Shown: piece after piece, positions 39,676 to 50,776 of the stretch
Position numbering within the stretch: the stretch's first letter is position 1
How the letters are laid out: each line of letters begins with the position of its first letter
Program-made: the position numbers and the translations under genes
Notes under the pieces: model-generated
Database searches by the model: none
The model's input: only the letters and a program-made list of their open reading frames with translations
Told to the model about the DNA's origin: nothing
Assembly: GCA_018005585.1 (NCBI GenBank)
Contig: JAGMZX010000008.1
Location: 15,361-72,903, forward strand
DNA length: 57,543 bases
Source: Candidatus Hydrogenedentota bacterium
Lineage (GTDB): Bacteria > Hydrogenedentota > Hydrogenedentia > Hydrogenedentales > JAGMZX01
Direction: 5' to 3'

Positions 39676-40557
39676 TCACGCCGGGAACAGCGCTGCGTAA
39701 TCGCATCGCTCGAAGACGTCGAGAGCGGTGTGGGCGCTCGCATTGTAAACACGGCGGCCCGCGCGCACGAACGTGTCGCGGGCGAGGGCGTAGGCCTGTT
39801 CCTGGCGCTCGACGTCCGGCACCCCGATCTGGTCGCCGACTTTGTAGTACTGGTGGCTGAAATGCAGGCCGCGGATCAGGTCGATGTTCTCTTCCGTGAT
39901 CGTGATCTTGCCCGGCGGGAAGCGCTTCGGCAGATCGCCGTAGTCGTGGTCGAGCCCGATGACGTAGACCGGGTCGCAGCCGAGATGATAGGCGAGTTGC
40001 AGCATGATGTGCGTAACCGTCGAGCCGAGATGCACGATCCCGGCGAAATCGGTCGAGAACTGAGGATATAGTTCGGTCCAGTAATACTTGCCGCCGCGAT
40101 AACGGGGCGCGTGGAAGAAGATCGTGTCCTGATCGGCGCGGAAGCAGTAGGCGTTGTAGATTGCGGCGAGCTTTTTCGGCCCTTTTACCGCCGCGATGTC
40201 CTTGCGGCGCAGCTCGATCTGCTCGATGTCCTCGAAGACGAGATACGTGGTCGTAAATCCCCACTCTGGGTAGAGCTGATAAATGCCGTTGCAGCCGATG
40301 GTGATTTCCTTGCGCAATTTCGAGAGGTCCAGCTGCTTGAGGCTCGGACCGTTCGCCAGCACGAAACAGCGCTTGCCCTTGTACCGGTCGCGCATGACGG
40401 CCAGCCGCTGCTGATAGCCTGGGACCATCGCCAGTTTGGGCCGCCAGCCGCCCCATGTGACGCCGATGCGGTCATAGAACCGGCGGCGCGCCCTGAGCAG
40501 GCGCCAATAGCCTACCGGCTTTTCCCACCAGGGGATTTGTGGAGTCCAGGCAATCAT
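39676..40557 (-). CDS. MptE-like/DUF115 protein
   Basis: A 293-residue soluble protein. The pattern GKRCFVLANGPSLKQLDLSKL followed by ITIGCNGIY and TYLVFEDIEQI is that of the DUF115/MptE-like fold, named after the archaeal 6-hydroxymethylpterin diphosphokinase and also found in bacterial Maf motility accessory factors and sugar-transfer loci. A later segment VYVIGLDHDYGD carries conserved acidic residues. Because two glycosyltransferase genes follow on the same transcript, a role in glycan or nonulosonate transfer is more likely than folate metabolism. It is the first gene of the operon; four palindromes lie in its upstream gap. Confidence 0.78.
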   Translation of the reverse strand: MIAWTPQIPWWEKPVGYWRLLRARRRFYDRIGVTWGGWRPKLAMVPGYQQRLAVMRDRYKGKRCFVLANGPSLKQLDLSKLRKEITIGCNGIYQLYPEWGFTTTYLVFEDIEQIELRRKDIAAVKGPKKLAAIYNAYCFRADQDTIFFHAPRYRGGKYYWTELYPQFSTDFAGIVHLGSTVTHIMLQLAYHLGCDPVYVIGLDHDYGDLPKRFPPGKITITEENIDLIRGLHFSHQYYKVGDQIGVPDVERQEQAYALARDTFVRAGRRVYNASAHTALDVFERCDYAALFPA

Positions 40558-42514: not shown

Positions 42515-43810
42515 ATGGCACGTTGGTGGCCGATGCCCTTCTGGCGCGAAAAACGGGGTTTGGGCCGGCGCGCCGGCGAAGGCAAGGGCCGGGGCTTGCG
42601 CCCCGTGCCGCTGCCGCCCGCGGGCGTGTTCAAGACGGCGTCGGTGCCGGAGGACGTGAGCCGGTTCGGCGTGCACTGGGACCATTTCGTGCCGCTGCCG
42701 AACGAGACGCCTTTCGAGATGCTGCAGGTCTACCGCTTCCTGCGCGACGCGATACCGGACATCTCGGACGCGGTATGGACGTGGAAGCGGCTGTGCCAGA
42801 CGGGCTACGAGGTCGAAATCGCTGATGCAAGTTCGGACACGGCCCGGCGGCGCGCCCAGCGGCTGATCGACGACCTGAACCACCGTGTCAACAGCGGCGA
42901 TCGCGGCATGGACGGCCTGCTCGATGTCTTCTACACGTCCCTGTTCACATACGGGGCGGCGGCGCTCGAGATCGTATTGTCGCAGGGCCGCGAATCCATC
43001 TGGGACGTGGTCCCGGTGGACGTCTGGACGGTCCGGTTCAAACGCGAAGAGGGCGCGCTCGAGGCGTATCAGGTCTGGAACGGCGCGGAAATCCCGCTGC
43101 CGACGGAGCGGTTCATTTACGTCGGCATGGACCGCGACGGCACCAACCCGTACGGGCGCTCGATGCTGCGCTCAATCCCGTTCGTGGTAAAGATTCAGCA
43201 GCGCCTGCTCGAGGACATGGCGAAGGCGACGCACAACGCGGGCTGGGCCAAGCTGCACGTGCAGTACGCGCCGGACGAACGGCAGCGCGGGGAAAGCCCC
43301 GAGGCGTACCAGGCGCGCATCGGCGCGAACTTCAAGGATCTGCGCGACAGGCTCAGCGGGCTTGAAGTGGACCAGAACCTCGTCACGTACGACAACGTGA
43401 AGATTTCGGTGGTCCGCGCCGATCAGCACGCGCAGGTCTTCTACGACAATCACAAGGCGGTCGAAGAACAGGTGATCACGGGCATGCATCTGATGCCAAT
43501 CCTGCTGGGGCGCAACTACGGCACGACCGAAACCTACGGCACGGCGCAATTCGAGATCATCACGCGGCAGGTCGAAGGCATCAACCGCAGCGTCAAGCGC
43601 ATCCTCGAACGGCTCTACAACTTCGAACTGGCGCTGATGTGGGGCGAGGCGCGCGCGAAGGTGCACATGCGACAGAACCGCACCGTGGACGTGCTCAAAG
43701 AAGCACAGGCGCGCAGCCGCGACATTGCCAATGCGCTGACGCTGTTGGACCGCGGCTTGGTCGGGCGCGACCAGGCCGCCGCGCTGCTGCGCCTTCCCGA
43801 ATCCCGCTGA
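42515..43810 (+). CDS. Phage portal-like protein
   Basis: A 431-residue protein with portal features: LPNETPFEMLQVYRFLRDA, PVDVWTVRFKREEGALEAYQ, NPYGRSMLRSIPFVVKIQQR (the typical stem/clip-region block), VEEQVITGMHLMPILLGRNYG with TETYGTAQFEI, and an Arg/Ala-rich helical end. Portals form the dodecameric ring at one capsid vertex through which DNA passes. The N-terminus is basic and Arg/Gly-rich. ATG at 42515 has an AAAGGGA box. It starts the cassette. A terminase large subunit, which normally precedes a portal, is absent; a HigA remnant is found instead. Confidence 0.82.
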   Translation: MARWWPMPFWREKRGLGRRAGEGKGRGLRPVPLPPAGVFKTASVPEDVSRFGVHWDHFVPLPNETPFEMLQVYRFLRDAIPDISDAVWTWKRLCQTGYEVEIADASSDTARRRAQRLIDDLNHRVNSGDRGMDGLLDVFYTSLFTYGAAALEIVLSQGRESIWDVVPVDVWTVRFKREEGALEAYQVWNGAEIPLPTERFIYVGMDRDGTNPYGRSMLRSIPFVVKIQQRLLEDMAKATHNAGWAKLHVQYAPDERQRGESPEAYQARIGANFKDLRDRLSGLEVDQNLVTYDNVKISVVRADQHAQVFYDNHKAVEEQVITGMHLMPILLGRNYGTTETYGTAQFEIITRQVEGINRSVKRILERLYNFELALMWGEARAKVHMRQNRTVDVLKEAQARSRDIANALTLLDRGLVGRDQAAALLRLPESR

Positions 43811-43838
43811 ATCCCGCCACATCATCGGAGGCATCCGC

Positions 43839-44546
43839 ATGGAACTGGAACCCTTTGTCTTTCGGCGCGACGGCGCGCTGCTCGGCATGCGCGCGGAGGA
43901 ATCCGGCGCGAACGCTGAGGCACAGAAGCTGCTCGACACGGTGAACCGCTACACGCTGCGCCCGCTCGCGCGCGAGGAATTCGCCGTTTTCACCCTCGAC
44001 CTCTGTCATAACCAGATCGACCGGCATTTCAGCCGGTTCCCCGACGAGGAACTCGACAAGATCGACCGGCTGACGCCGGGCCGCCCGTTGATGGAGCGCC
44101 ACGACCTGCGCGGGTCGCTGCCGCGCGGCACGTTCTTCCGCTCGCAGTTGCACCGCGACGGCGAGCGCCTTTCCGTGCGGCCCGACGTGTACGTCCTGCG
44201 CACGGGGGACAATCGCGACTTCATTCTCAACATCGAGGGCGGCGTCTATCGCGAGACGTCGATCGGCTTTTCCTTCCGCACACCCGAGTGCTCGGTTTGT
44301 GGGCGCGACCTGCGCGCCTGCGACCACGTGCCCGGCCGCACCTATAGCGGCAAGCTCTGCCACTTCATCATGCGCGACGTGCTGGAAGTGATCGAGGGTT
44401 CAGTTGTTGCGTCAGGTTCGCAGGGCACGCGATTCGTGCCGAGCGAGGCGCGATGCGTGCCCGCCCCGGACGCGCTCGCGATTGCGCGCGACCTGTGGCA
44501 CGCGCCCATCGAATTGCAGCCGCGCCGGTTCTGGGCCGCCGAATGA
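43839..44546 (+). CDS. Prohead protease-like protein (HK97/S78 type)
   Basis: A 235-residue protein. HK97-type prohead proteases mature the capsid by cutting scaffold and coat. The catalytic pair is recognisable: His88 in PLMERHDLRGS and Ser141 in YRETSIGFSF, with beta strands between. A cluster C151-x2-C154 ... C161-x-H163 ... C174 (ECSVCGRDLRACDH) follows the Ser and probably binds zinc, which the HK97 enzyme lacks. GGAGG lies eight bases before the ATG. It sits between the portal and an LigD-type domain protein. Confidence 0.82.
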   Translation: MELEPFVFRRDGALLGMRAEESGANAEAQKLLDTVNRYTLRPLAREEFAVFTLDLCHNQIDRHFSRFPDEELDKIDRLTPGRPLMERHDLRGSLPRGTFFRSQLHRDGERLSVRPDVYVLRTGDNRDFILNIEGGVYRETSIGFSFRTPECSVCGRDLRACDHVPGRTYSGKLCHFIMRDVLEVIEGSVVASGSQGTRFVPSEARCVPAPDALAIARDLWHAPIELQPRRFWAAE

Positions 44547-44574
44547 CCTGGTCCCACCAACGCGAGGAAACAAG

Positions 44575-45279
44575 ATGTTCTGGAAACTGGATTGTGAGCA
44601 GGCCGCGCCTGCGCGAGAGACGGACGCGGAACGGTTTGCCGGGCGTTTCGTACTGCACCGGCATCACGATGCGGAGGGTCCCCACCTCGATTTGCGCCTT
44701 GAACAGGACGGTTATCTTGTCGGCTGGCGCATCGAGAGCACGAAGCTCGAAGGCGGACTCTGGGCGCGCGAGAAGGGGCCGCACCCGGTGGCATGGCTCG
44801 AACAGAACGGCGACGCCATGCGCGAGGACGCCGGGCTGTACGCCTGGCTGGAACGCGACGCGGCCAGCGGTACGCTCATCCTTCGCGGGGCGCAAGGGGA
44901 CCGCGTGCTGCGTGTGCGCCGCGTATCCAGGTTACCCACGGCGGCAATGCGCGGCGTGTGCGAGGCGCTGCGGGAATGCGCCGCGCCTGCGGACCATGCG
45001 GGCAGGCTCGTGCGCGACGGCGTTGCGGCGCGGCGGCGGGCCATTGCGCGGCTCTGCGGCTTGGGCCGCGAACTGGACGGCAGCGCGTTCGACGAGACGG
45101 TCTGGCGGCGCACGCTCGAATCGTGCAGCCTCGATGAAATCTACGCGCATCTGCGGGCCTTCGAGGTGCGTTTCGACACGAAATATCCGCCGCAGCCCGT
45201 GTCGCGGCCCGTGCCGCTCGCGGATGCGCCGCCGTGCGGCGGACGCAACCGCGCTCTGGAAATCGTGCAGAACGGATAA
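44575..45279 (+). CDS. LigD-type 3'-phosphoesterase-like protein in a capsid cassette
   Basis: A 234-residue protein. Residues about 20-120 match the 3'-phosphoesterase (PE, LigD_N) domain: RFVLHRHHDAEGPHLDLRLEQDG aligns with the PE core, here noted by its parts FVLHRHH (His30/31), HLDLRLE (His37, Asp39, Arg41) and KGPHPVAWL (His70), followed by beta strands ending VLRVRRVSR. These are the metal and phosphate ligands of bacterial PE enzymes, which trim 3'-phosphates and 3'-ribonucleotides at DNA ends. The rest (about 125-234) is helical and Arg-rich. No ligase or polymerase domain is attached and no ku gene is nearby. It occupies the slot between protease and capsid genes, where scaffold is often found. 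GAGGAAA precedes ATG 44575. Confidence 0.72.
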   Translation: MFWKLDCEQAAPARETDAERFAGRFVLHRHHDAEGPHLDLRLEQDGYLVGWRIESTKLEGGLWAREKGPHPVAWLEQNGDAMREDAGLYAWLERDAASGTLILRGAQGDRVLRVRRVSRLPTAAMRGVCEALRECAAPADHAGRLVRDGVAARRRAIARLCGLGRELDGSAFDETVWRRTLESCSLDEIYAHLRAFEVRFDTKYPPQPVSRPVPLADAPPCGGRNRALEIVQNG

Positions 45280-45302
45280 GCCGTACTGGGGGACACAAAC
45301 GC

Positions 45303-45317
45303 GCTCCCCGCGGGAGC
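45303..45317 (+). repeat. Small hairpin before the decoration gene
   Basis: GCTCCC (45303-45308), CGC loop, GGGAGC (45312-45317), 34 bases upstream of the decoration protein start, in the gap after the phosphoesterase-like gene. No T-tract. Confidence 0.35.
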
Positions 45318-45351
45318 CAAAACCCAAACAAGACAGACAGGAGGAAGCATC

Positions 45352-45732
45352 ATGGCATTTGGCGATATCGGCGGCGTTGTCACCGAGTTGATCCTCACGT
45401 GCGCGACGCCCGCGTCTGGCAGCGTGGCGATCGGCAAGGGCGACGCCGTAAAACTGACCGGCAATTACACCGTAACCAACGCGACCAGCGCGGAAGACGC
45501 CGTCTTCGGCCAGGCGCTCGCCGACGCCGCGGAAAACAGCGTGGCCATCCCGGTGAAGGTTCGCGGCGTCTGCGAATTCCAATACACGGGCTCGGCCCCG
45601 GCCGTGGACGGCGCGGCGGGCATCACGGCCTCCGATACCGCGGGCAAGGTCAAGACTCCGGCATCGGGCAACGGCAAAGGAATCAACGTCAAAGTCGACA
45701 CGGCCGCCACGACGGTCTACGTGTTGCTGTAG
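45352..45732 (+). CDS. Capsid decoration protein-like (DUF2190 type)
   Basis: A 126-residue beta-rich protein of low complexity (Ala, Gly, Thr, Val). It has the form of DUF2190-like capsid decoration proteins: VAIGKGDAVKLTGNYTVTNA, then VFGQALADAAENSVAIPVKV, then GKGINVKVDTAATTVYVLL. These trimeric proteins sit on the capsid surface and stabilise it. AGGAGGAAG precedes the ATG. It is followed after 15 bases by the major capsid protein gene; the pair is flanked by hairpins at 45303 and 46830. Confidence 0.75.
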   Translation: MAFGDIGGVVTELILTCATPASGSVAIGKGDAVKLTGNYTVTNATSAEDAVFGQALADAAENSVAIPVKVRGVCEFQYTGSAPAVDGAAGITASDTAGKVKTPASGNGKGINVKVDTAATTVYVLL

Positions 45733-45747
45733 GAGGCGCGCATCACC

Positions 45748-46800
45748 ATGAACTACCACGACGGTTTAATCCGCGACCGCGTCGCGTTTCTCGGCCAGCC
45801 CGCGGAGAAGCTGCACGCGGTCCGCGGCCAGCAGTTGTACGAAACGCTGCAATCCCTCGGATTGACCCACCGGCACTACTTCCAGGCGCTAGGCACGAAC
45901 GTGCAGGACTACTGCGCCCGGGAGTTCGGCATCGACGTGGGCCGGATCACGGTCGAGCGATTCTTCCAGTCAGACCCGAACGCGAAATGGCTGTTCCCGG
46001 ACATCGTGCGCGAGGCCGTGCTTGACGGACTCCGGCGCAAGCCGCTGTATCCTGAGTTGATCGTGCGCGACGAGGCGGTCAACGGCACCGCCTACGACCT
46101 GCCCTACGTCACCGAGAACGAGGCGGAGGAGGAACTGCGCACGGTGGCGGAGGGCGCGGCAATCCCCGAGTCCGAGATCGCCTACGGCGACCGCATCGTG
46201 CGCCTGGACAAGCTGGGCCGCGGCGTGGTCGCGTCGTATGAGGTCGTGCGCCGCATGTCCGTCGACATGCTCCGTGTGCACCTGCGGCGCATCGGCGAGC
46301 GGCTGGGGCGCACGCTTGATGCCCGGCTCGCGATGGTGCTGGTCGAGGGGGACGCGTCCGGCCCGGGCACCGCGCCGCTGGTCCTCAACACGGCGACGGG
46401 CAACACGTGGGCCTACGCGGACCTCGTGACCGGTTTTCTGACGTTGACCGCGGGCCACTACTTCACGCCCACGCACATGCTGGCCGACCCCGAGACCTGC
46501 GAGGCGATCCTGAACCTCGCCGAGATCAAGGACAGCCAGTGGTTCGACTTCGCGAAGACGGGCAACCTGCCCACGCCGCTCGGCGTGAAGCTCGCACCCA
46601 TGGCTGGCCACCCCGAGAAGAAACTGACCATCCTCGACGCGGGCTATGCCGTTCAGAAGCTCACCGAGCAGGACCTCCTCGTCGAAAGCGACAAGCTCAT
46701 CAACCAGCAGTGGGACCGCACGTACCTGACCGTGGTCACGGACTTCGCGATCCTCTATGACAAGGCGCGCGTCGTCCTGAACAGCGACTGGACCCCGTAA
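45748..46800 (+). CDS. Major capsid protein-like
   Basis: A 350-residue protein in the position and size class of an HK97-fold coat protein. Features: SDPNAKWLFPDIVREAVLDG, a beta-rich E-loop-like region (LPYVTENEAEEELRTVAEG), the P-domain spine helix (RRMSVDMLRVHLRRIGERLG), and a late block TPTHMLADPETCEAILNLA typical of A-domain strands. ATG at 45748 follows GGAGG. There is no long N-terminal scaffold-like extension, so a separate scaffold or the phosphoesterase-like protein may fill that role. A strong hairpin lies 30 bases after the stop. It is probably the most abundant product of the cassette. Confidence 0.8.
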   Translation: MNYHDGLIRDRVAFLGQPAEKLHAVRGQQLYETLQSLGLTHRHYFQALGTNVQDYCAREFGIDVGRITVERFFQSDPNAKWLFPDIVREAVLDGLRRKPLYPELIVRDEAVNGTAYDLPYVTENEAEEELRTVAEGAAIPESEIAYGDRIVRLDKLGRGVVASYEVVRRMSVDMLRVHLRRIGERLGRTLDARLAMVLVEGDASGPGTAPLVLNTATGNTWAYADLVTGFLTLTAGHYFTPTHMLADPETCEAILNLAEIKDSQWFDFAKTGNLPTPLGVKLAPMAGHPEKKLTILDAGYAVQKLTEQDLLVESDKLINQQWDRTYLTVVTDFAILYDKARVVLNSDWTP

Positions 46801-46829
46801 CCGAACCTTGTCCGACCCCACCCGCACAT

Positions 46830-46868
46830 GCCGGCGCGGGGAGACTGCTCCCTTCTCCCCGCGCCGGC
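46830..46868 (+). terminator. Strong hairpin after the major capsid gene
   Basis: Perfect 15-bp arms GCCGGCGCGGGGAGA (46830-46844) and TCTCCCCGCGCCGGC (46854-46868) with a 9-base loop. It lies between the capsid stop and the connector start and could attenuate or process the transcript. No T-tract follows, so full termination is uncertain. Confidence 0.6.
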
Positions 46869-46885
46869 CATAAGGAACCTGCATC

Positions 46886-47302
46886 ATGGCTACCTTCGCT
46901 ACCGAAGACGACGTCCGCGAACGTCTCCAGGCCCATGACACCGAGACGATTCCGTCCGGTCTTGTTACAGCCATGCTCGAGGACGCGCACGAGGAAGTGC
47001 TGCGCCGGTTCGATCTTGCGTACGAAGAAACGCCCCTCCCCGCGGGACTCGTCGCGGGCGAAGCGCTGCTGGCGGGCGCGCGCCTCCTGCAAGCGCTGGC
47101 CTCGGCCGACGCCATCGAGCAGCAGCACCTCAGCATCGGTGGACAGCGTTTCGAGGCGGGCAGCCGGTTCGCGGCGCTCCTGGCCATGGCGGACCAGGCA
47201 GAGGCGCGGGCCTGGGAGATGCTCGAGCCCTATCTCCTGTCCACGCTCGCGCAACGGGAGCTGGACGTCTCGGACAGCACGCCCGTGCTCGGCGGGGAGT
47301 GA
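46886..47302 (+). CDS. Head-tail connector-like protein
   Basis: A 138-residue helical protein starting MATFATEDDVRERLQAHD, which resembles gp6-like/DUF1320 connectors. After a helix of Arg/Glu pairs (SGLVTAMLEDAHEEVLRRF) come a hydrophobic helix pair (EALLAGARLLQALASADAI) and a Gly strand GQRFEAGSR. Connector proteins close the portal after DNA packaging. Position, right after the capsid gene, supports this. AAGGA lies before the ATG. Its stop overlaps the next start (GTGA). Confidence 0.65.
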   Translation: MATFATEDDVRERLQAHDTETIPSGLVTAMLEDAHEEVLRRFDLAYEETPLPAGLVAGEALLAGARLLQALASADAIEQQHLSIGGQRFEAGSRFAALLAMADQAEARAWEMLEPYLLSTLAQRELDVSDSTPVLGGE

Positions 47303-47994
47303 AGCCCGTGGCGATTACCTTGGGCAATTACGTCTTTGACGAGACGCGCACGGCCATCGCGGAGAAATACGCGGAAGTCGGCGGCCGCGACGCCCGCCAG
47401 GTCCGGCTGTCGGGCGCGATACTCGGCAAGCGCACCCTGGCCGAACTCGAAGCTGCGCTCGACGCCGTGCTGGCCGCCGCTTCGGCGGACACCGCGGACA
47501 CGCCGCTCGTCCTGCGCGAAGGCCGCCGGTTACTGGTGCGGCGCACCGGCTTCACGCGCGAGGTGAGCCGCAAACCGCTCGTCGGCGCATTCACCGTGCA
47601 GCTCGAAGCGCCGTCCTCCTTCGAAGAAGCCGTCGACGAAACCGAAGTGAACTGGAACATCTCAGCCTCAGGCGTAACGCGGACGCTCACGGCTGGCGGC
47701 AATGCGCCCGCGCCGCTGCGCATCACCCTCGCCGCTTCCGGCAGCGTCATTGCGCCCCGGTTCAGCGACGGGGTGCGCGCCATTGCATATTCCGGCGCCG
47801 TTGCGAGCGGCGAGGCACTCGTTTTCGACGGCGCCGCGGGCCGCGTCACGCTCGAAGGCGAGGACGTCACGCCCTACACGGACGGCGTGTTTCCGCGGGT
47901 CTCGCCCGCAAGCACGATGCTCACATACACGGACGATCCGGACAGCACGCACGTGTGCGCCGTCACGATCGCGTACCGGGACCGTTGGTGGTAA
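47299..47994 (+). CDS. Phage tail-like protein (distal-tail or tube type)
   Basis: A 231-residue protein with a GTG start overlapping the connector stop. It has two halves: an N-terminal mixed region (ITLGNYVFDETRTAIAEKY, then LGKRTLAELEAALDAVLAAA) and a beta-rich C-terminal half (NWNISASGVTRTLTAGGNAP, EALVFDGAAGRVTLEGEDVT, DRWW end). Similar layouts are found in Dit-like and other short tail proteins. It is followed two bases later by the nuclease-containing tail protein. The assignment rests on context and fold pattern, not on a specific motif. Confidence 0.55.
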   Translation: MKPVAITLGNYVFDETRTAIAEKYAEVGGRDARQVRLSGAILGKRTLAELEAALDAVLAAASADTADTPLVLREGRRLLVRRTGFTREVSRKPLVGAFTVQLEAPSSFEEAVDETEVNWNISASGVTRTLTAGGNAPAPLRITLAASGSVIAPRFSDGVRAIAYSGAVASGEALVFDGAAGRVTLEGEDVTPYTDGVFPRVSPASTMLTYTDDPDSTHVCAVTIAYRDRWW

Positions 47995-47996
47995 TC

Positions 47997-49736
47997 ATGG
48001 AATACCGCATCGAAGTCTACGATACCTGGGGCCGCCGCGTCGGCGCATTCGACGACGTGCCATTGCTCGAAGCCACACGCACCGCGCCGGATGAGCCCGA
48101 CGCCGTGCGCGGCCTGCTGCCCGCGGAGGCCGCGGCGTTGGGCACGGCGTTCCGCGTCCGCGTGTTGGTCGAGGGCGCGCTGTTCTGCGAGGCGCCGGTA
48201 GCCGGCATCGGCCCGCAATGGGGCGATACACGCAAGTTGATCCTGGATCGCTATGTGCCATTCCACACGGTGCTTGAAGTTGGCGCGGAACAGCCGCCGG
48301 ACGTGATTAACAGGCCTGTATCGCAGGCGCATACCAACCAGGAAATCAGCGCCATTGTCAAGAGCGTCATCAATGGCGCGCTCGGGCCCGTGCACTATAC
48401 GGTCGCGCATGCGGCATACCCGGATGGCGCACAGCGGGAATACGCGAAGTTTCTTGCGCGCAAGTCGCTCGACAACGAACTCGAGGTCGGCGGCATCGCG
48501 GCTGGTCAGTGGGCCGGCGCGCCGCGCCTCGACGCAAGCAACGCCTACGCCAAGGACGGCGACACCATTGCCGGGCTGGCCGTGGACGGCGCGGCATGGC
48601 CGGACCTGCGCCTGATGATGGTGGACGCGGAGGAAACGAGCCGGAACAGTCACGCCGTCAAGCGCCATCCCGAAACGGCGGCGTGGACCGATGCGCGGTA
48701 TGACGCGAGTGGCTACAAGCGCGCCGCCGACGCGGCCCGGGCGTTCCTGCAAGACCTGCTCGGTCAGAAAGGCATCGATTACGTCGAGTTGAATCCGCAT
48801 AAAGACGCCTCCGGCGCGTACGACGACCGGATCGACGCATATGGGCGCTATATCGGCCTCGTCTTCGGCGGAGGCGAGTGTCTCAACGCCGCGCTTGTCG
48901 AAACAGGCCACGCCGACGTCTACCTCTACGAGGAAGGCCGCTACCACGTGCCGGAAATGGCCCTGAAGGAGTTCTATTCCTATCGGGGCGCCCACGGAGA
49001 CTCGGTACAACATACGGGCGCCTCCCTGGCAGAATTCGACGCTTCAGGCGGCGTGCTTGAAGTGCTCGCCGCGCTTGCCTACGCCGCGCACGGCCATGTC
49101 TTCACGGTAAATGCGGACAAGGCCGTTGCATTCGGACCGGTTGAAGCGCCGGACCACGTGTTCTTCTACGATCCGCTGCGGATGAGCGTGCGTTTTGGCG
49201 CGGATGCCCGCGACCTCGCAAATTACATCGCGTTACGGGGCAATCCGTTCACGGGCGCGCTCAACAAGACATACAGCCGCGCGTCGAGCATTGACGCCTA
49301 CGGAGTCGCGGCGCGCAAGTTCGACTACTTCAGCATTTCGCGCGTCGAAGACGCGGATCGCATCGCTGCGGGGCTGCTGGCCGATATCGCGTATCCCGAG
49401 CCGTCCGGGACCGTCACCTTCTTCGACGGGAACCACGAGGCGCGCGTCGGGGACCTCGTCGAACTACGCGGGGCGCCCGTGCGCCGCATCGAACCCGCAC
49501 TCGACGACGAATGGGACGGACGTTACCCGGACAAGATCGTCGCGCGCGTGCGCCGTGTAAGCCACAAGTTCTCCGGTCGTCGGGCAAGCACGACGCTGCA
49601 TCTCGGGTCGCCGCTGCGGTCCGTCGCGCGCCCGCTGAGTTTCATCGTGCGCAGTCAGCCCGCCGCGTCGACGTTGTTCGGATTCCGGCTCGACGATGCG
49701 CGCGTCGGATTGGACATGGGATTTCACCTGGACTGA
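47997..49736 (+). CDS. Phage tail protein with inserted staphylococcal-nuclease-like domain
   Basis: A 579-residue protein with three parts. Residues about 1-165 are a beta-rich tail region (MEYRIEVYDTWGRRVGAF). Residues about 180-330 match the staphylococcal nuclease (thermonuclease) fold: KDGDTIAGL (Asp189, like Asp21), DLRLMMVDAEE (Arg205, Asp210, Glu213, like Arg35, Asp40, Glu43), YKRAADAARAFLQDLLG, YVELNP, and IDAYGRYIGLVFGGGE (Arg284, like Arg87), then CLNAALVETGHADVYLYEE. The rest, 340-579, is a beta-rich tail or hub region (HVFTVNADKAVAFGPVEAP, DGNHEARVGDLVELRG, STTLHLGSPLRSV). No signal peptide. All four catalytic residues of the nuclease are retained. It lies two bases after the previous gene. 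Confidence 0.78.
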   Translation: MEYRIEVYDTWGRRVGAFDDVPLLEATRTAPDEPDAVRGLLPAEAAALGTAFRVRVLVEGALFCEAPVAGIGPQWGDTRKLILDRYVPFHTVLEVGAEQPPDVINRPVSQAHTNQEISAIVKSVINGALGPVHYTVAHAAYPDGAQREYAKFLARKSLDNELEVGGIAAGQWAGAPRLDASNAYAKDGDTIAGLAVDGAAWPDLRLMMVDAEETSRNSHAVKRHPETAAWTDARYDASGYKRAADAARAFLQDLLGQKGIDYVELNPHKDASGAYDDRIDAYGRYIGLVFGGGECLNAALVETGHADVYLYEEGRYHVPEMALKEFYSYRGAHGDSVQHTGASLAEFDASGGVLEVLAALAYAAHGHVFTVNADKAVAFGPVEAPDHVFFYDPLRMSVRFGADARDLANYIALRGNPFTGALNKTYSRASSIDAYGVAARKFDYFSISRVEDADRIAAGLLADIAYPEPSGTVTFFDGNHEARVGDLVELRGAPVRRIEPALDDEWDGRYPDKIVARVRRVSHKFSGRRASTTLHLGSPLRSVARPLSFIVRSQPAASTLFGFRLDDARVGLDMGFHLD

Positions 49737-49741
49737 GTCTT

Positions 49742-49814
49742 TGGGGAACGCGGCCGGGACGCCTGTTGTTGCATTGCCTTCACCCCTCCCCTCTGTCCCG
49801 GCCGCGTTTCCCCA
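49742..49814 (+). terminator. Long hairpin between tail and fibre genes
   Basis: Arms TGGGGAACGCGGCCGGGAC (49742-49760) and the matching sequence at 49795-49814 (one extra A gives a single-base bulge) enclose a 34-base loop. It begins six bases after the tail-protein stop and ends 22 bases before the fibre-like start. It is a likely terminator or RNA-processing site. Confidence 0.6.
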
Positions 49815-49836
49815 GCTACACCGATTGGAGGACGCC

Positions 49837-50358
49837 ATGGCGTTCAAAGGACCCGCCTACTTAAAGACGACCTGGAGTTTCGAGGAGCGTCCTGTCGCTT
49901 CCTCTAAACTGAACACTTGGGACGACCGCATCGAGGCCGCGCTCGAACTCGTGTGCCTGCTGCTGAGCCTCGCCTGGGGCGGCGGCAGCGGCGTGCTGCG
50001 CGGGGCCGCGACCGACGACCTCAAGACCGTCGCCAAGACCACGCCGGGATTCTCTGTCGAGGTCAAGCCCGGCTACGCGATCATCGATGCATTCCCGTTC
50101 AAGCTGGCCGCGACAACGGAGACCGTCGAAGTGACGCCGCCCGTCTCCCAGAACCGCATCGACCTCGTCGAGGCGAGCCTCGAATCGTGGAGCATCAAGA
50201 CCAAACAAGGTGCGGAAGCCGCTTCGCCGAGCGCGCCCGCCCCTGACACCGGCTGCATTGCACTGGCGCACTTGTACCTGCGCCCGGGCATGACCGTTAT
50301 CAAGAACTCCGACGACTCGACCAACGGCTACATCATCGACGCGCGTACGTTCCTGTGA
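49837..50358 (+). CDS. Fibre or appendage-like protein of the capsid cassette
   Basis: A 173-residue protein starting MAFKGPAYLKTTWSFEERP, with GGAGG upstream of ATG 49837. The region LKTVAKTTPGFSVEVKPGYAIIDAFPFKL and TVEVTPPVSQNRIDLVEASLES matches phage tail-appendage or baseplate-wedge N-terminal domains that contain a GxAxIDGFPF-like strand and a NRIDLV motif. It ends with TNGYIIDARTFL. It is followed by a small membrane protein gene, and a fibre/membrane pair also lies at 10.7-11.7 kb. It probably attaches to a tail or surface; ligand unknown. Confidence 0.65.
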   Translation: MAFKGPAYLKTTWSFEERPVASSKLNTWDDRIEAALELVCLLLSLAWGGGSGVLRGAATDDLKTVAKTTPGFSVEVKPGYAIIDAFPFKLAATTETVEVTPPVSQNRIDLVEASLESWSIKTKQGAEAASPSAPAPDTGCIALAHLYLRPGMTVIKNSDDSTNGYIIDARTFL

Positions 50359-50395
50359 GCCAGGCCCGCCGCGCAAAATAGAGGAGATTTTTGCC

Positions 50396-50776
50396 ATGCA
50401 AATCGATACGCTCGCCGTGCCGGACGTGGCGCTAACGCTGGCCGCAGCCGGCCTCGGCGCGGCCTGGGCATTCTTCAAGGGCACCGCGTGGTTCGAGCGC
50501 CTGCAGCGGCGCCGTTTCGCCAAGGTGCTTCACGTGCTCGAAGCCGCCGTCGACGAGACCTACCGCGTTTACGTCGAAACGATCAAGGCCGCGCGAGCCG
50601 ATGGCCGGCTCACGCCGGAAGAACGCCGCCACGCACGGGAACTCGCCCGCGAACGCGCCCTCGTTCTGGGCCGCGACCAAGGCATCGATGTCCTCGCCGA
50701 ACTGGGCCGGGACTACCTCGACCTCTGGATCGCCCGGTCCGTGAAGCGGCTGAAGCGGCGCGCCAAGCCTTCGTAA
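50396..50776 (+). CDS. Small membrane protein, holin-like candidate
   Basis: A 126-residue protein with one N-terminal hydrophobic helix (VALTLAAAGLGAAWAFFKG, about 11-29), then a basic, amphipathic helical body (WFERLQRRRFAKVLHVLEA), an acidic stretch with LTPEERRHARELARERA, and a very basic end (RSVKRLKRRAKPS). GAGGAG precedes the ATG. Holins and some membrane anchors of phage particles look like this, but one helix is few for a holin. It closes the cassette; a sigma-70-like promoter follows for the next host gene. Confidence 0.55.
   Translation: MQIDTLAVPDVALTLAAAGLGAAWAFFKGTAWFERLQRRRFAKVLHVLEAAVDETYRVYVETIKAARADGRLTPEERRHARELARERALVLGRDQGIDVLAELGRDYLDLWIARSVKRLKRRAKPS

Follow-up and report, generated by a model that had tools for sequence, protein, structure and literature searches.

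A LigD-type phosphoesterase domain joined to a scaffold-type module in a putative gene-transfer-agent-like element of the Hydrogenedentota

Introduction

Gene transfer agents (GTAs) are recognized by proteins that derive from tailed phages, by endogenization, often across several loci, and by vertical inheritance and co-diversification with their hosts; further criteria are that mostly random host DNA is packaged, that the whole of the agent's own gene set cannot be packaged, and that DNA is delivered to other cells (PMC9662315). The Brachyspira GTA has a single terL gene, which is unlinked (PMC9662315). Known GTAs come from few lineages, their discovery from sequence is hard, and their true prevalence is unknown (PMC11841831).

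The element described here, found in Candidatus Hydrogenedentota, resembles the known agents RcGTA, BaGTA, BhGTA/VSH-1, Dd1, and VTA in that it also consists of tailed-phage genes at several loci, is likewise vertically inherited and congruent with its hosts, and has an unlinked single terL, as in the Brachyspira agent. It differs from them in residing in a different host phylum, and neither particles nor transfer have been shown. It further encodes a 3'-phosphoesterase (PE) domain fused to a scaffold-type module, a fusion that we found reported for no GTA.

Results

The DNA analyzed, hereafter the window, is a stretch of 57,543 nucleotides of contig JAGMZX010000008.1 (genome G000 in our sample). 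It contains a phage-derived cluster at 42515-50776, the features of which are given in Table 1. The gene under study begins with an ATG and ends with a TAA, has a Shine-Dalgarno-like GAGGAA immediately 5' of its start, and follows the prohead protease ORF after a gap of 28 bp. Its position between prohead protease and capsid genes, as reported in the first-pass annotation of the window, was borne out by the family matches of its neighbors (phrog_16951 on the 5' side, phrog_4588 and phrog_3922 on the 3' side). The prohead protease of the window lacks the C-terminal scaffold-type extension of its phage relatives.

Table 1. Coordinates of the cluster genes, of the domains within them, and of one upstream gene in the window
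Feature	Coordinates	Strand	Evidence and remarks
MptE-like protein	39676..40557	-	PF01973; directly upstream of the cluster
Portal protein (Mu-type)	42515..43810	+	PF06074 E 2.3e-8, phrog_3753 E 1.2e-47; conserved first cluster gene in relatives
Prohead protease	43839..44546	+	phrog_16951 E 1.8e-34; homologous to Jenst, fHoEfm07, and gut-phage proteases
PE domain plus scaffold-type tail protein, 234 aa	44575..45279	+	
LigD-type 3'-phosphoesterase (PE) domain, about residues 20-112	44632..44910	+	Invariant H30, H37, D39, R41, H70
Tail domain, residues 141-213	44995..45213	+	Homology to C-terminal extension of phage prohead proteases
Decoration/cement-type protein	45352..45732	+	phrog_4588 E 4e-13
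Major capsid protein (MCP)	45748..46800	+	PF25209 E 1.4e-10, phrog_3922 E 2.2e-47
Head-tail adaptor-like small protein	46886..47302	+	Role from position only; same place in 26 loci; no family match of weight
Distal tail (Dit) protein	47299..47994	+	PF22768 E 4.2e-7, phrog_33 E 1.8e-10
Tail-tip-like protein with inserted SNase domain (residues 218-327)	47955..49736	+	PF00565 E 6.8e-6
Staphylococcal-nuclease (SNase) domain	48606..48935	+	Inserted within the 47955..49736 product
Virion structural protein	49696..50358	+	Weak phrog_9534 E 7e-5
Small protein with hydrophobic N-terminal stretch	50396..50776	+	Last cluster gene, conserved in 28 loci; no family match; possibly a holin (role inferred)

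Ten genes tested in the flanks of the cluster encode ordinary proteins (glycosyltransferases and MptE-like, GH28, GH43-like, LOG-type, GFO/IDH, HEAT-repeat, M3 peptidase, and DUF2961 proteins), and there was no integrase or replication gene among them. The MptE-like protein stands beside glycosyltransferases and the GH28 protein.

The first-pass annotation had assigned the 234-residue product to the LigD-type PE domains from a pattern of His30/His31, His37, Asp39, Arg41, and His70, and had proposed a search against LigD_N. With the single sequence, this search was only partly favorable: PF13298 gave a weak match (18.7 bits, E 0.002) that did not reach the gathering cut-off of 31.1, and TIGR02777 matched with an E value of 1.3e-4. 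A 39-row alignment and profile was then assembled from the query and 38 homologs, all from the same phylum. Compared with PDB sequences, the profile had PE domains as its five top matches (3p43, E 1.9e-7; 3p4h, E 1.3e-5; then 5dmp, 2lj6, and 3n9b). The profile of the N-terminal half matched the PE domains of two genuine LigD proteins from this phylum, one of them encoded beside Ku in genome G029, with a score of 40.5, an E value of 1.9e-6, and 31% identity. The maximum score of 100 column-shuffled profiles was 20.1, and together with the PDB matches this places the PE match well beyond chance, upholding the assignment. Single-sequence structure models were weak; one (pLDDT 65.8) had several PE chains among its top structural matches, none of them significant. 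All residues of the proposed pattern stand where the annotation had put them, and five of them are among the positions invariant in 39/39 sequences (H30, D32, G35, H37, D39, R41, G50, R52, K67, and H70); H30, H37, D39, R41, and H70 are kept even in homologs with as little as 27% identity to the query.

The PE domain of LigD has His42, His48, and Asp50 as Mn2+ ligands, Arg52 and His84 at the phosphate site, and a catalytic Tyr88 (PMC8656161). In the alignment, H30, H37, and D39 fall on the three metal ligands, and R41 and H70 on the two phosphate-site residues. The N-terminal domain is thus, on sequence grounds, homologous to the LigD PE superfamily (PF13298/TIGR02777; Pseudomonas aeruginosa LigD PE 3N9B; archaeal PE 3P43, 3P4H, and 5DMP). 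It differs in having one additional residue separating the first His from the second and in the equivalent of Tyr88, which is Trp74 in 37/39 sequences and Leu in the other 2/39, so that the catalytic Tyr is not kept and five of the six catalytic residues are present. Because of this replacement, enzymatic activity cannot be assumed; the chemistry is likely to be similar, but the protein is not a proven PE enzyme.

Unlike LigD, the 234-residue protein has no ligase, polymerase, or Ku, and is fused to a phage capsid-assembly domain. PE domains are known both in LigD and in stand-alone repair enzymes (PMC8656161), and the gene could on that account be read as a host NHEJ or DNA repair factor that merely stands beside phage genes. 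The gene context already contradicts this explanation, which we regard as scarcely tenable: the PE domain is always found in a portal-protease context, fused to the phage assembly domain, and neither Ku nor LigD was found in G000. Across the phylum, Ku was present in one of 40 genomes and canonical LigD in two of 67, and their absence from the remaining 39/40 and 65/67 genomes, with the phage gene context, speaks against an NHEJ reading. The only canonical LigD found beside Ku is at G029:C81:103364-104655; the other LigD is in G056.

The first-pass annotation had also suggested that the gene occupies a scaffold slot, and the helical tail did prove to share homology with the scaffold-type extension that phage prohead proteases carry at their C terminus. 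Such a domain is present in the extended proteases of Brevibacillus phage Jenst, Enterococcus phage fHoEfm07, and gut phages MT835769, MT836604, and MT121964, which share with the window the order portal, protease with tail, decoration, and capsid. The phage proteases include the tail, whereas in the window it is split off and carries the PE domain. Residues 141-213 align with the extension of Jenst, fHoEfm07, and two gut phages (hhalign E 1.3e-5 using the full profile, and 3.1e-6 using only the tail). Against the observed score of 45.5, 100 shuffled profiles reached at most 22.4 and the profile in reverse 15.3.

Natural variants separate the two modules. G015 and G021, both from a single genus, have no PE domain, and one ORF encodes their protease together with the tail; the fused tail of G015 is 57% identical to that of the window. 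In G032 (locus L219, G032:C191, contig positions 9899-10567) the PE domain has decayed with loss of all catalytic residues, and the tail is intact. At least two lineages thus no longer have an intact PE domain, through loss or decay. Tail homology, the G015/G021 fusion, and the G032 decay with an intact tail lead us to regard the protein as two modules in one chain, PE and a capsid-assembly part. Most simply read, a scaffold-type module (the tail) has been retained, and PE is an added enzyme that two lineages have lost; capsid scaffolding by the tail is inferred from its homology, its position, and the short (350-aa) capsid protein. In many relatives (L023, L044, L050, L055, and others) a coiled-coil and transmembrane protein of ~70-80 aa lies between protease and PE. 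It has an XhlA-like layout, had no family match, and is absent from the window.

These variants also bear on whether the PE domain is an enzyme at all. The domesticated element could be real and its PE domain non-enzymatic, with the fold contributing structure or DNA binding to the scaffold-type protein, given that the Tyr88 essential in LigD is Trp74 and that G015/G021 do without PE and G032 has it only in decayed form. We consider this possible but doubtful, since the three metal ligands and the phosphate-site Arg and His are invariant in 39 homologs down to 27% identity, and since G032 lost all of its catalytic residues together, which would be expected if catalysis was the selected trait.

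In the tail-tip-like protein, the SNase residues R218, E226, and R297, equivalent to catalytic Arg35, Glu43, and Arg87, are invariant in 22 genomes. A tail-tip nuclease and a head PE protein are encoded within one cluster. SNase cleavage leaves 3'-phosphates, and a link in which PE heals such ends is attractive, but an obligate pairing was rejected, because the domains do not strictly co-occur: no SNase match accompanied PE locally in 19 loci, some of which have split clusters or are truncated at contig ends, and SNase occurs without PE in G015/G021.

The distribution of the element was determined in 68 genomes of the phylum, 38 of them of high quality, which represent one order, 11 family codes, and 44 genus codes. 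PE was found in 55/68 genomes (34/38 of high quality) and MCP in 52/67 (34/38), and the high-quality genomes without PE (G008, G031, G034, and G054) are the same four that lack MCP. PE, MCP, and the large terminase subunit (TerL) are nearly always present as a single copy per genome; additional matches within a genome were fragments of MCP spread over different contigs (G028, G046), a weak partial match (G011), and the true LigD of G056. A comparison of gene order in relatives, a check put forward in the first-pass annotation, favored a conserved head cluster: the order portal-protease-PE-decoration-MCP is constant wherever the genes are linked, with all five present in 33 of the 40 loci examined. 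The flanking genes vary among genomes, and MCP is unlinked from portal-PE in G002, G004, and G029. Family f6 and part of f10 have no Dit or SNase genes in the local cluster. This short cluster (L026, L027, L035-L039, L041) also lacks the virion protein locally and has an M15-like endolysin (phrog_894, E 1e-6) after the capsid gene. Evidence for a complete particle therefore does not extend to all lineages; for tail-tube and tape-measure genes, the search covered only the loci examined.

The possibility that the element has no terminase was refuted. Profiles PF03237 and PF04466 gave no match to its TerL, which was found first with phrog_2, and true orthologs were then traced using the TerL of G014 as query. 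The ortholog is present in 56/67 genomes (37/38 of high quality), mostly with 60-78% identity; in some genomes there are further TerL genes, less closely related, which appear to belong to real prophages. In G000 it lies on another contig (G000:C61:1270-2688; phrog_2, E 3.9e-15), and no head genes were found in the flanks (up to about 10 kb) of 20 sampled TerL loci. In 12-15 of these 20, TerL comes after a small TerS-like gene and a gene with a 3D domain (PF06725, E 1.1e-17), and in G000 the separate conserved locus (L152:1261-3841) comprises TerL, the 3D-domain lytic-type protein, and the TerS-like small protein. Only in G014 is TerL linked, just behind the head cluster.

Gene trees were built with FastTree to compare the history of the element with that of its hosts. 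In 33 genomes, the tree of concatenated portal, protease, decoration, and MCP shared 20/30 splits with that of rpoB, and at most three splits were shared in 1000 relabelings. Among the strongly supported rpoB splits, 16/18 recur in the head-gene tree, and both strong conflicts concern G024 only. The TerL tree shared 11/24 splits with rpoB (null maximum 4), a weaker congruence than that of the head genes. Pairwise dN/dS, excluding pairs with saturated dS, was 0.06-0.30 for PE, 0.04-0.19 for MCP, and 0.03-0.16 for portal, which indicates that the element genes are under purifying selection. The PE values, together with homologs of 27-68% identity in the same slot, support the coding status of the ORF.

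An ordinary or decaying prophage, with an accessory PE gene inserted between protease and capsid, would account for the phage order in which the portal, protease, capsid, Dit, and tail genes stand. This explanation is largely refuted and in our judgment very improbable: we reject ordinary-prophage status because the genes are near-universal in the phylum, nearly always single-copy, congruent with rpoB, and under purifying selection, and because the terminase is unlinked. The flanks vary as well, with no integrase among the flanking genes tested. No close relatives of the element were found in phage records or in IMG/VR, where a profile scan with PE gave no usable relative and one with MCP found relatives only about 27% identical. 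Nor did we find any phage with PE between protease and capsid. An Eremiobacterota locus (L022) was discarded as a relative, as it shares no other cluster gene.

Discussion

The element meets the GTA criterion of tailed-phage proteins with its portal, protease, capsid, Dit, and TerL, that of endogenization across several loci with its separate TerL and the three genomes in which MCP is unlinked, and that of vertical inheritance with the splits that its head genes and TerL have in common with rpoB. Self-packaging of the element is unlikely because its terminase is unlinked; there are no particle data. We consider it probable on balance that the 234-residue protein combines PE and capsid-assembly modules within a domesticated, multi-locus set of tailed-phage genes, vertically inherited throughout the phylum, whose likeliest function is that of a GTA. 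Particle formation, the packaging of host DNA, and DNA transfer are inferred.

The capsid set could instead have been domesticated for a use other than transfer, such as a compartment storing protein or DNA, or a particle directed at competitors. There are known cases of phage parts put to other uses, and some lineages of the element have no local tail genes. This alternative nevertheless seems improbable to us, since portal, TerL, TerS-like, endolysin-like (phrog_894), and 3D-domain genes have been retained, which favors DNA packaging and lysis. We therefore retain as the best reading an undescribed GTA-like element with a 3'-end-healing enzyme, of which the particles, the DNA transfer, and the PE activity are unproven.

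How the PE domain might serve such an element can only be proposed, as its activity, location, and substrate are all inferred. The tail would place PE inside the procapsid or on its surface. There, packaged host DNA with blocked 3' ends (3'-phosphates or 3'-ribonucleotides) would be given clean 3'-OH ends by PE, and these may then be used for recombination or ligation in the recipient cell. That a phylum-wide GTA uses a scaffold-type protein to load an end-healing PE domain into its capsid, so that packaged host DNA leaves with recombination-ready 3'-OH ends, is put forward tentatively, as a possibility short of a probability.

While GTAs are a known kind of system, the lineage, the phylum-wide spread, and the PE-scaffold fusion appear to be new. 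Our literature searches yielded no report of PE domains in GTAs or phage head clusters, and none that links GTAs to Hydrogenedentota; coverage was partial in both cases, and this is weak evidence of novelty.

If this reading is true, a domesticated DNA-packaging machine spread throughout a phylum would be a case both old and broad. The element is open to testing because MCP, PE, and TerL are single-copy genes. The PE-scaffold fusion also opens a neglected question, namely whether gene-transfer particles process DNA ends for use by the recipient.
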